From IMG/VR virus record IMGVR_UViG_3300042558_001525, positions 1 through 21,495 of that record: 21,495 nucleotides of DNA; one strand, given 5' to 3'. Positions 17,523-19,089 of the stretch are shown here, one piece after another; position 1 is the stretch's first letter; each line of letters opens with the position of its first letter. Made by a program: the position numbers and the translations under genes. This DNA is from a virus. A model generated the notes under the pieces. That model was not told the origin of the DNA. It saw only the letters and a program-made list of their open reading frames with translations, and did no database searches.

Positions 17523-17750
17523 TTATATTTTAAAGTTTTGAATTTCTTGTTCAACTTCTTTCCAATAATTAAATAAATCAACGTCACCTTTTACTTCCAT
17601 AACAATTAATATTTCATAAACTGAATGTTCAGCGCATTTTTTAGCTAAAATAATTAATAGTAATTCATCTTCAAAAACTTCAAATGCCTCAATTAATTTT
17701 GTATAATAAGCAATCAACTTTTTTGCCTTTACCTTAGGTGCTAAAATCAT
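17523..17750 (-). CDS. Small conserved Bacteroidota phage protein
   Basis: A 75-residue protein: helical N-terminus ('PKVKAKKLIAYYTKLIEAFE'), then 'KKCAEHSVYEILIVM' and a C-terminal 'FNYWKEVEQEIQNF'. The pattern of a Cys/Ala helix followed by a Trp-x-x-Val-x-x-Glu-Ile end recurs in small proteins of Bacteroidota phages as I recall them. No function is known to me. It overlaps the diphosphohydrolase end by four bases. Confidence 0.65.
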   Translation of the reverse strand: MILAPKVKAKKLIAYYTKLIEAFEVFEDELLLIILAKKCAEHSVYEILIVMEVKGDVDLFNYWKEVEQEIQNFKI

Positions 17751-18160
17751 TTTATTTGTTTTTGTAAATCATTTAATTGTGGATGTGTAAAATAAAACTC
17801 TGTAAGCATTGCAGCATTAGCCATCAAGTGCGCGGAATGCAAAAGCCCACTTTCTTTATCAATCATTTCACCAAGTCGCATGGCTTCCAGGTGACGCATA
17901 GCGGAGGCAATTACAACGGAGAATGGAAAACCTTTCTCCCAGTTACCGGCAGGATATTTTTTTAATCCTTCAGTCCAAACCTTCGCATATTCCCTCTGCG
18001 CTATTGCTGGGCAAAGGTCGTAACGTAGTTTATTTTCATTTGTCCTAAATGCCTTGTTTTCGTCGTAATCTGGATTTCTGCCAGAAGCTATCATTAATTC
18101 CCTAACCCTTTGTTCATTTGTTTTTCTTATTAATTTTTCAACTTCATTCATAAATAGCAT
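17747..18160 (-). CDS. dATP/dGTP diphosphohydrolase family protein (MazZ-like)
   Basis: A 137-residue helical protein; ATG 18151 would shorten it by three residues. It has the family pattern: 'NKLRYDLCP' (residues 43-51), 'EGLKKYPAGNWEKGFPFS' (64-81), 'SAMRHLEAMRLGEMIDKESGLLHSAHLMANA' (87-116). Family members are all-alpha NTP pyrophosphohydrolases related to MazG, with acidic residues binding metal; Glu75, Glu92, Asp101 and Glu103 are candidates here. In phage S-2L the relative MazZ processes (d)GTP for 2-aminoadenine DNA. No PurZ or DatZ is seen in this window, so general nucleotide-pool control is equally possible. A 12-base palindrome lies just ahead of its start. Confidence 0.78.
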   Translation of the reverse strand: MLFMNEVEKLIRKTNEQRVRELMIASGRNPDYDENKAFRTNENKLRYDLCPAIAQREYAKVWTEGLKKYPAGNWEKGFPFSVVIASAMRHLEAMRLGEMIDKESGLLHSAHLMANAAMLTEFYFTHPQLNDLQKQIK

Positions 18161-18189: not shown

Positions 18190-18214
18190 GTGCCGTCTTT
18201 CCGTGCTGTCAATA
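18190..18214 (-). repeat. Hairpin repeat, copy 1 (diverged)
   Basis: On the minus strand it reads TATTGACAGCACGGAAAGACGGC, a diverged copy of the hairpins at 18371-18397 and 18568-18594. The stem is GC-(A)-CG with CGGC, loop GAAAGA. The stem bases changed but pairing is kept apart from one bulged A, which supports an RNA role. No tRNA-like element follows this copy; it precedes the diphosphohydrolase gene. Confidence 0.6.
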
Positions 18215-18262: not shown

Positions 18263-18366
18263 TAGCAAGGGCAGGATTCGAACCTGCAAACTTGTTTGTT
18301 TGTTGGAACAAGTAATCCCAATGGTTGCGACCCATACACTGCGTTCACCAATTCCGCCACCTTGCC
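18263..18366 (-). tRNA. tRNA-like RNA 1, abnormal core (no assignable anticodon)
   Basis: A 104-base element on the minus strand. The acceptor stem is seven pairs (GGCAAGG with CCTTGCT, first pair G-U), discriminator A, and no encoded CCA. Then come T8-G9, a Leu-type D arm (GCG/CGC around a loop with the invariant GG) and a perfect T arm (GCAGG-TTCGAAT-CCTGC). Between D and T arms are 53 bases instead of about 35. They offer a four-pair hairpin with a seven-base loop GTCGCAA (18321-18335), a six-pair hairpin with a seven-base loop (18303-18321), or a seven-pair ACTTGTT/AACAAGT arm. None gives a normal five-pair anticodon stem at the right place. It may be a diverged class II tRNA or a tRNA mimic. 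Confidence 0.55.
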
Positions 18367-18370
18367 AAAT

Positions 18371-18397
18371 TTGCCTGTCTTTCCAGGCTGCCAATAC
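18371..18397 (-). repeat. Hairpin repeat, copy 2, just 5' of tRNA-like RNA 1
   Basis: GCCTG and CAGGC (on the minus strand, from 18388 to 18373) form a five-pair hairpin with loop GAAAGA, embedded in the conserved ATTGGCAGCCTGGAAAGACA sequence. It ends about five bases before the acceptor stem of the tRNA-like RNA, the position of a processing signal or leader element. Confidence 0.75.
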
Positions 18398-18442: not shown

Positions 18443-18565
18443 TAGCAAGGGCAGGAATCGAACCTACAAACAAAACTCATTGTTACCATTTACATTATCA
18501 CTTTTCAGTGAGCTGGATTTGAACCAACAAATAGAGCCCTTATGCCTCCAATACAACTCCTTGCT
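18443..18565 (-). tRNA. tRNA-like RNA 2, foldable as two tRNA bodies on one shared anticodon stem
   Basis: A 123-base element on the minus strand. Outer body: acceptor AGCAAGG/CCTTGCT (seven perfect pairs), D arm TTGT-ATTGGAGGC-ATAA, helix GGCTC (18534-18538) with GAGTT (18474-18478) where the anticodon stem belongs, then a six-base variable loop and T arm GTAGG-TTCGATT-CCTGC. Where the anticodon loop should be, there is a second set of arms: a five-base linker, T arm GTTGG-TTCAAAT-CCAGC, a stem TCACT-GAAA-AGTGA standing for a closed acceptor, T8-A9, and D arm ATGT-AAATGGTA-ACAA with the GG and flanking A residues. No anticodon remains in this fold. The alternative is a class II tRNA-Leu with loop TTCAAAT (anticodon CAA), but that leaves 11 and 30 extra bases. 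Confidence 0.55.
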
Positions 18566-18567
18566 AT

Positions 18568-18594
18568 TTGCCTGTCTATTTCCAGGCTGCCAAT
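18568..18594 (-). repeat. Hairpin repeat, copy 3, just 5' of tRNA-like RNA 2
   Basis: The same five-pair GCCTG/CAGGC stem as copy 2, with an eight-base loop (GAAATAGA on the minus strand) and the same ATTGGCAGCCTGGAAA flank. It ends two bases before the acceptor stem of tRNA-like RNA 2. Confidence 0.75.
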
Positions 18595-18609
18595 TCATCC
18601 TCTGACGCA

Positions 18610-18658
18610 TTTAGGTGGAAAGAAATGTCTAATCTGGGCAAAATAACATTCACCTAAA
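18610..18658 (-). ncRNA. Structured leader ahead of the tRNA-like cluster
   Basis: TTTAGGTG pairs with CACCTAAA (18651-18658 with 18610-18617, eight perfect pairs) and an inner AATGT/ACATT stem (18624-18628 with 18646-18650) stacks on it after a six-base bulge, closing a 17-base loop. The two stems give 13 pairs in a non-coding stretch. It is transcribed with the tRNA-like elements if they share a leftward promoter. It matches no riboswitch I know. Confidence 0.4.
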
Positions 18659-18668
18659 CCCGAGGTCT

Positions 18669-18706
18669 GCAAATATCTTTATGTAGTCATGTGACCGACC
18701 AATATT
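18669..18706 (-). promoter_or_regulatory. Possible Bacteroidota-type promoter for the tRNA-like cluster
   Basis: On the minus strand TATTG and GATATTTGC are spaced by about 22 bases, close to the Bacteroidota -33 TTTG and -7 TAnnTTTG consensus, with one mismatch in the second box. It overlaps the last codons of the gene at 18679-19089. Such motifs are short and this AT-rich genome will hold chance matches. Confidence 0.3.
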
Positions 18707-19089
18707 CTTTCTTGACGAAACGAACTCATTAAAGTTCGGTAAAGTTCACTGGTTGTAAGTAAAAGTTGCTTTACCGCCCGACATTGTTCGAATATCGCCG
18801 TAGCCTTCGGATATTTCCCTTTAACGTAAAAATCGGTTAATGTGGAGGAGTGTTTAACTCTTTTATACTCCTCCACTGGCATATCACGAATGCAAGTCAT
18901 CATTAGATAAGAATAAATACTTTCGTTCATGCCAGATATAACCGTATAGCGAGAGTAATAAGCAGATAATTGTCTTAAATATTCGTCACATTCATCTAGC
19001 ATTTCAGCAGATGGGGCTGTGCTAATCCAGGCGTTAACCTCTTCACAAAAAGCCTTAATTTCTAACATCTTACTATTATACTCTTTCAT
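18679..19089 (-). CDS. Helical protein of unknown function
   Basis: A 136-residue, almost wholly helical soluble protein ('MLEIKAFCEEVNAWISTAPSAEMLDECDEYL', then Tyr/Ser-rich, then 'AIFEQCRAVKQLLLTTSELYRTLMSSFRQER'). It lies downstream of the exonuclease and Bet genes in the same direction, separated by one small gene, so a replication or recombination accessory role is possible. No family recognised. A non-coding island of 518 bases follows its stop. Confidence 0.6.
   Translation of the reverse strand: MKEYNSKMLEIKAFCEEVNAWISTAPSAEMLDECDEYLRQLSAYYSRYTVISGMNESIYSYLMMTCIRDMPVEEYKRVKHSSTLTDFYVKGKYPKATAIFEQCRAVKQLLLTTSELYRTLMSSFRQERILVGHMTT

Follow-up and report, generated by a model that had tools for sequence, protein, structure and literature searches.

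Genes and RNAs of the Locus

The window considered here, meaning the whole 21.5-kb stretch of DNA that was analyzed, is a linear virus record whose genes include those for a tape measure protein, RecT-like, exonuclease-like, and dCTP deaminase-like proteins, and a dATP/dGTP diphosphohydrolase. On its minus strand, a conserved gene for a 136-aa protein (18679–19089), which has 89 relatives in viral contigs and neither a PHROG nor a Pfam match, is followed in order by a structured leader, a hairpin, a 123-nt RNA (RNA1), a linker, a second hairpin, a second RNA (RNA2), another linker, a third hairpin, and the conserved diphosphohydrolase gene (17747–18160; Pfam PF18909, E 7.7e-26). The leader (18591–18690, minus strand) contains a covarying long-range helix, with two-sided changes at eight pairs in an alignment of 20 sequences, and is kept in phages whose sites are empty. 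The hairpin directly before RNA1, GCCUG-GAAAUAGA-CAGGC (18570–18590, minus strand), likewise covaries; a second copy (18373–18390) lies directly before RNA2, and a third (18192–18208), before the dATPase gene, is also present in empty sites.

RNA2 (18263–18366, minus strand) is a tRNA-like molecule of 104 nt that carries a long variable-arm-like insert and lacks a normal anticodon arm. It matches the Rfam tRNA model (44 bits, E 1.5e-6), is not called by ARAGORN, and has relatives in L014/L075, L017/L076, and L062/L086. A short arm of 4 bp (AUGG/CCAU) and a long helix resembling a variable arm can be discerned in it, and RNA2 is probably non-decoding.

Between the same conserved genes, the island is hypervariable. 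Loci fetched by means of the two flanking proteins (69 and 80 related loci) include empty, one-cassette, and two-cassette versions with different contents; L002, L004, and L007 have one hairpin and no cassette, and recurring cassettes, linkers, and hairpins are combined in many ways.

Two tRNA Bodies on One Stem

Judged by its sequence, RNA1 (18443–18565, minus strand; RNA positions 1–123 correspond to 18565–18443) can form an outer tRNA body in which the anticodon arm is swapped for a second, circularly permuted tRNA body, the two bodies sharing one anticodon stem. The outer acceptor pairs AGCAAGG (18559–18565, RNA 1–7) with CCUUGCU (18444–18450, RNA 116–122) and is followed by a discriminator A at 18443, after which inspection of the sequence found no encoded CCA end. 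The outer D arm, UUGU/AUAA (18540–18556, RNA 10–13/23–26), has the loop AUUGGAGGC with a GG resembling G18-G19. The strand GGCUC (18534–18538, RNA 28–32), at once the 5′ strand of the outer body's stem and the 3′ strand of the inner body's, would pair with GAGUU (18474–18478, RNA 88–92) in a shared stem of five base pairs, three of them Watson-Crick and two G-U. Enclosed between these strands are the inner T arm GUUGG-UUCAAAU-CCAGC (18512–18528, RNA 38–54), the inner acceptor UCACU-GAAA-AGUGA (18498–18511, RNA 55–68), whose closure by a tetraloop makes the body circularly permuted, and the inner D arm UGU-AAAUGGUA-ACA (18481–18494, RNA 72–85), in which pair 10-25 would be A-A. The outer T arm GUAGG-UUCGAUU-CCUGC (18451–18467, RNA 99–115) completes the molecule, and the variable loops are UAUUU (inner, five bases) and UUGUUU (outer, six bases). 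A seven-base loop with an anticodon is absent from RNA1, the shared stem running directly into the other body. Every element of RNA1 listed in the initial annotation, including the shared-stem pairing, was found where that annotation had placed it.

Relatives in Other Phages

The initial annotation had suggested a search of related phages for homologues, and these exist: 13 distinct double RNAs in two sequence families were aligned from 18 phage contigs, with one further copy in L257, and the contigs carrying doubles are about 8 kb to 270 kb long. Close copies of RNA1 occur in two contigs, one copy having a compensatory change of the inner acceptor from UCACU/AGUGA to UUACU/AGUAA. A covariance model (R1) built only from RNA1 and these two copies, three near-identical sequences, found L173, a 79-kb phage contig, and also, at full length, a second family (L163, L172/L134; E below 1e-9 for L163 and L172) that has almost no sequence likeness to the first in the inner body. 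A pattern derived from the second family then matched 15 contigs, 11 of them new. Another pattern scan added to the known cases only a match in L191, which was rejected as a chance hit in a coding region. An array of several odd tRNA-like RNAs lies beside the double in L173 (5516–7291).

The covariance-model match of RNA1 itself (E 2e-37) is a product of construction. Doubles score 67–137 bits and ordinary tRNAs in bacterial genomes up to about 52 bits, the latter because the outer body is a tRNA. The covariance search of bacterial genomes scored only nine candidates per genome and was supplemented by exact pattern searches, in which the family-B pattern was found in none of 395 Bacteroidota genomes. 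Among cultured phages, no near-identical relative of the window was found and the double RNA was not matched in those searched; a distant search gave short matches only, Bacteroides phage BS-TP2 being the informative one. The hosts of the double-RNA phages are probably Bacteroidota, an assignment that rests on BS-TP2, the Sphingobacterium cellulitidis genome discussed below, and the promoter type of relatives, and that is not established for the window.

Sequence flanking the double RNAs differs between phages, and the hairpin is not constant before them, being absent from L163, L333, and L338. In L333 (4857–4977) and L338 (1998–2119), a TAnnTTTG box (TAACTTTG and TATCTTTG) ends 3 nt before the double RNA. 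TAnnTTTG is the −7 element of Bacteroidota promoters, and given these boxes the two relatives may be separate transcription units. Before RNA1, neither a sigma-70 scan nor the TAnnTTTG pattern gave a promoter above chance.

Covariation and Its Controls

Across the 13 sequences, 96.2% of alignment cells are paired vs. a shuffled mean of 75.8%, and two-sided changes that keep pairing occur at 27 of 34 pairs vs. a shuffled mean of 16.4, a count of 27 being reached in none of 500 shuffles. When partners were slid by one to three columns, at most 47% of cells were paired and at most eight pairs showed two-sided changes. Compensatory changes are present in all seven helices and span the two families. 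They affect six of seven pairs in the outer acceptor, all four in the outer D arm (loop GG in 13 of 13), three of five in the inner and again in the outer T arm (each 100% paired), and one of three in the inner D arm (87% paired; loop GG in 12 of 13). The initial annotation had singled out two helices for such scrutiny, and it counted the absence of covariation at the shared helix as refutation; both vary on both sides at all five of their pairs, with the inner acceptor (UCACU/AGUGA in RNA1) 100% paired and the shared stem paired in 86% of cells, its fourth pair being non-standard in nine of the 13 sequences. The proposal of a permuted and GAAA-capped inner body, a shared anticodon stem, and no anticodon is thus borne out across homologues.

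These counts favor the structure to some degree, because the alignment was fitted to it and the model behind the alignment (R2) was trained on six of the same sequences. Model R1, with three training sequences, gave the same covariation picture for seven sequences. Family A has four sequences, of which three are near-identical. As a separate control, dinucleotide-shuffled inserts were placed between fixed outer arms, and a permuted inner tRNA was called by ARAGORN in none of 1500 shuffles for the window and in two of 1500 for L134. Taken together with covariation and the ARAGORN shuffle controls described next, this rules out a chance resemblance of RNA1 to tRNA. The fold of two tRNA bodies on a shared stem is, as inferred from these comparisons, almost certainly under selection.

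Hallmarks of tRNA and the Limits of Prediction

Each body was rewritten in the usual tRNA order, a dummy loop of seven bases standing at the anticodon-loop position, and in this form ARAGORN called a tRNA in 13 of 13 outer and 12 of 13 inner bodies, while shuffled inner halves gave no call in 2600 attempts. For RNA1 and three relatives, both bodies were called with three different dummy loops. The D-loop GG and a T-loop UUYRA are found in both bodies in 12 of the 13 sequences, the exception being the inner body of L173, which has no D-loop GG and received no tRNA call. The inner acceptor is capped by a four-base loop in every double, GAAA in 11 of 13, and total length is held at 120–125 nt. 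When 36 cassettes were scanned for circular permutation of a tRNA, about half of them being long enough for the test, only the four doubles were picked out.

A normal class II tRNA fold, which would have counted against the initial annotation, finds no support, ARAGORN having called no tRNA in any of the 13 intact double RNAs. RNA1 also has no match among 4227 Rfam families even at E up to 1, and an ordinary tRNA fold for it was rejected on these two grounds. Folding by energy was among the checks proposed in the initial annotation, and the ViennaRNA minimum-free-energy fold of RNA1 is another structure. For RNA1 of the window, the two-body fold is calculated at −25.8 kcal/mol vs. a minimum of −35.1, and for L163 at −31.6 vs. 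−34.6; other folds were favored by 3–9 kcal/mol in the five sequences evaluated. Natural tRNAs rely on tertiary contacts and modification, which may bear on this gap, for which there is no ordinary-tRNA control. The evidence for the two-body fold is comparative, not thermodynamic.

Relation to Known RNAs

Among familiar RNAs, tmRNA has a tRNA-like end and an anticodon stem replaced by another helix, and in this it is like RNA1; RNA1, however, has 123 nt, two tRNA bodies, and no tag region, and it received neither an ARAGORN tmRNA call nor an Rfam tmRNA match. Ordinary tRNA (RF00005) shares acceptor, D, and T arms with their loops with both bodies of RNA1, which differs in having two bodies per chain, no anticodon loop, and an inner body that is permuted with its acceptor end closed. 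In algae and archaea, circularly permuted tRNA genes have the 3′ half before the 5′ half, as does the inner body of RNA1; their transcripts are reported to be processed into normal anticodon-bearing tRNAs, whereas the permuted body here is nested in another tRNA and has no anticodon (PMC3978253). Processing of the inner body to an anticodon-bearing tRNA is excluded by the absence of any anticodon loop between the halves of the shared stem.

Two tRNA bodies joined by base pairing are also seen in the dimer of the mutant mitochondrial tRNA-Leu A14G, a misfold of two molecules held by D-arm pairing (PMC3587421), whereas RNA1 is a single, encoded, conserved chain joined via the anticodon stem. The engineered tRNA scaffold of Ponchon and colleagues retains acceptor, T, and D arms, has an unrelated RNA in place of the anticodon stem-loop, and protects that insert in the cell (PMC3753655); it is a laboratory construct, whereas the phage cassettes are natural and come with many inserts, a tRNA body among them. 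Phage tRNAs that evade tRNA-targeting defenses are again phage-encoded RNAs of tRNA type possibly shaped by host defense, but they decode and so compensate for cut host tRNAs (PMC10264068; PMC11555353), which RNA1 cannot do. Theta ribozymes, structured RNAs found at the 3′ end of phage tRNAs, mostly in Bacteroidota phages (PMC10879173), were rejected as an identity for the flanking hairpin, which lies 5′ of the RNA, on the other side, and is far shorter; with E allowed to reach 1, Rfam gave no HDV-type match for the window, the published theta descriptor not having been applied. No description of an RNA with two tRNA folds on one stem was found in the open-access papers searched, and as far as could be found this is an undescribed use of the tRNA fold.

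A Proposed Wider Class of tRNA-framed RNAs

Comparison of cassettes suggests that RNA1 is one case of a large set of phage RNAs, a class proposed here, in which a tRNA body serves as a frame for an insert. Most cassettes keep the acceptor, D, and T arms, and an unrelated structured insert replaces the anticodon arm. Two features mark its members: an insert enclosed by an acceptor and a T arm that are paired, as in RNA1 and 56 distinct cassettes, and a hairpin that covaries and lies a few bases 5′ of the RNA, as at 18570–18590 in the window. The hairpin followed by a tRNA-like start occurs in at least 119 viral contigs, and among the matches listed, 72 of the 81 starts read continue with a paired acceptor and a T arm; the hairpin pattern was found in none of 395 Bacteroidota genomes. 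In other phages, the variable pairs of the hairpin are paired in 64 of 65 cases. The spacing from hairpin to tRNA-like RNA is 2–9 bases, mostly 4–5. The 56 distinct single cassettes, all from other phages and 73–233 nt in total length, have a complementary 7-bp acceptor and a T arm, and with 30 different acceptor sequences among them several pair types occur at every acceptor position. Some members of the set are tRNAs of the ordinary kind or close to it, ARAGORN calling eight of the 56. The genome of Sphingobacterium cellulitidis also has a similar tRNA-like RNA, which probably sits in a prophage.

The inserts are diverse. In the 233-nt cassette of L262, a seemingly tRNA-like body is nested in the D loop, and in L167 (10908–11081, minus strand) three T-arm-like hairpins lie within 174 nt; these are possible further nested-tRNA designs. 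L013, L035, L037, L081, and L122 have the same acceptor as RNA1, AGCAAGG/CCTTGCT, but a long helix and a possible pseudoknot replace the D and T arms, and the interior of that cassette is not tRNA-like. Recurrent RNAs are also seen in the linker after the cassette in L008, L014, L017, L021, L043, and L046, and in further linkers of L003, L053, L123, and L131. They are of the types CTTAGCA...GGGTGACAGC and CTTACCACCCGAAGG...GGAACGGTGT, several begin at the tRNA-like 3′ end, and they could be ribozymes or separate RNAs. Self-splicing introns were judged an unlikely identity for the inserts, most of which are too short for group I introns.

Possible Function and Competing Explanations

The explanation preferred here makes RNA1 a phage RNA that does not decode, its tRNA body being a natural scaffold that has a second tRNA body as its insert. 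It would be transcribed with the operon, an inference made without expression data, and then trimmed by host enzymes in the manner of other tRNAs, with RNase P acting at the 5′ end and a tRNA 3′ nuclease at the other, followed by CCA addition. That RNA1 is matured like a pre-tRNA is probable, although the inference draws on tRNA biology and on no processing data. The tRNA body may in addition shield the RNA from decay, as it does in engineered scaffolds (PMC3753655). The least certain inference is that a host tRNA-binding protein, either a defense effector or an enzyme that processes, modifies, or charges tRNA, binds the acceptor end and one or both tRNA elbows that RNA1 presents and is thereby titrated or misdirected. 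Given that there are no binding data and nothing directly identifies a target, a role as protein decoy or ligand is possible but doubtful. With both bodies on one shared stem, the molecule would be roughly two-fold symmetric, and a dimeric tRNA-binding protein could, hypothetically, engage two elbows across the axis between them. Perhaps RNA1 is a counter-defense decoy, a hypothesis for which the rapid exchange of cassettes at the locus is the pattern expected from an arms race. Among the roles put forward in the initial annotation, that of an anticodon-nuclease decoy is the least likely since RNA1 has no anticodon loop; a better match is a decoy or ligand directed at proteins that recognize the elbow or acceptor end. 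The explanation as a whole, with maturation and protein binding included, is tentative, if not far from persuasive. More broadly, phages may keep a set of interchangeable effector RNAs built on tRNA frames, with maturation and stability supplied by the body and activity by the insert; the double would be a pseudo-symmetric member whose two elbows together bind a dimeric protein of tRNA handling or defense. In so specific a form this idea is speculative and somewhat unlikely.

Several other explanations compete with a non-decoding scaffold RNA. An action in cis, in which the cassette works within the operon, between the dATPase gene and its upstream neighbor, as a leader or processing marker and not as a free RNA, draws support from the placement of cassettes on the coding strand, from the 28 of 56 single cassettes that lie fewer than 60 nt before the following ATG, and from the covarying hairpin that precedes each cassette and also the gene. 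It is nonetheless unlikely, for gene order and hairpin are unchanged at empty sites, the site is shared by cassettes with unrelated structures, doubles are flanked by different sequence in different phages, and the doubles of L333 and L338 seem to have a promoter of their own. The many recombinations of cassette, linker, and hairpin, and the presence of cassettes in contigs as small as about 4 kb and as large as about 270 kb, would suit a selfish element that spreads between phages without benefit to them, the tRNA body being merely a stabilizer or mobility handle. However, no recombinase or nuclease was seen with the cassettes in the intergenic stretches read, and it is the RNA fold that is under selection, not DNA ends alone, which leaves this reading quite improbable.

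A precursor whose inner acceptor is opened by processing, with two tRNA-like halves either released or kept as a nicked, domain-swapped dimer, seems less credible again. The four-base cap present in every version could be a processing site, and permuted tRNA genes elsewhere are reported to be processed after transcription (PMC3978253). Yet the prevalence of GAAA suggests a stable closed end instead of an intervening sequence, and the product would have no anticodon. To our knowledge, moreover, bulge-helix-bulge splicing is not expected in bacteria. Finally, RNA1 could be a degenerate relic of two tRNA genes damaged by recombination and without present function, as the frequent recombination of the locus, the homology that tRNA arms supply for gene conversion, and the missing anticodon might suggest. 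A relic would lose covariation, length, and contact residues, whereas compensatory changes persist in seven helices of 13 sequences from two families, length is kept, and the T- and D-loop contact residues are retained in both bodies; this explanation is largely refuted and scarcely tenable.

A double fold of this kind separates tRNA shape from decoding, and the wider tRNA-framed set would supply new RNA domains and possible counter-defense RNAs. Such RNAs may be widespread yet unnoticed, because programs that search for tRNA genes either pass over them or report them as odd tRNAs. Expression and function are directly testable since one cassette is carried by a cultured phage, Bacteroides phage BS-TP2. 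There (PQ571275.1, handle L213, 1501–1635), a hairpin and a 108-nt tRNA-like RNA with the acceptor GGTATCG/CGATACC lie unannotated in the record, and a possible GAGCTTT/AAAGCTC pseudoknot replaces the anticodon arm.
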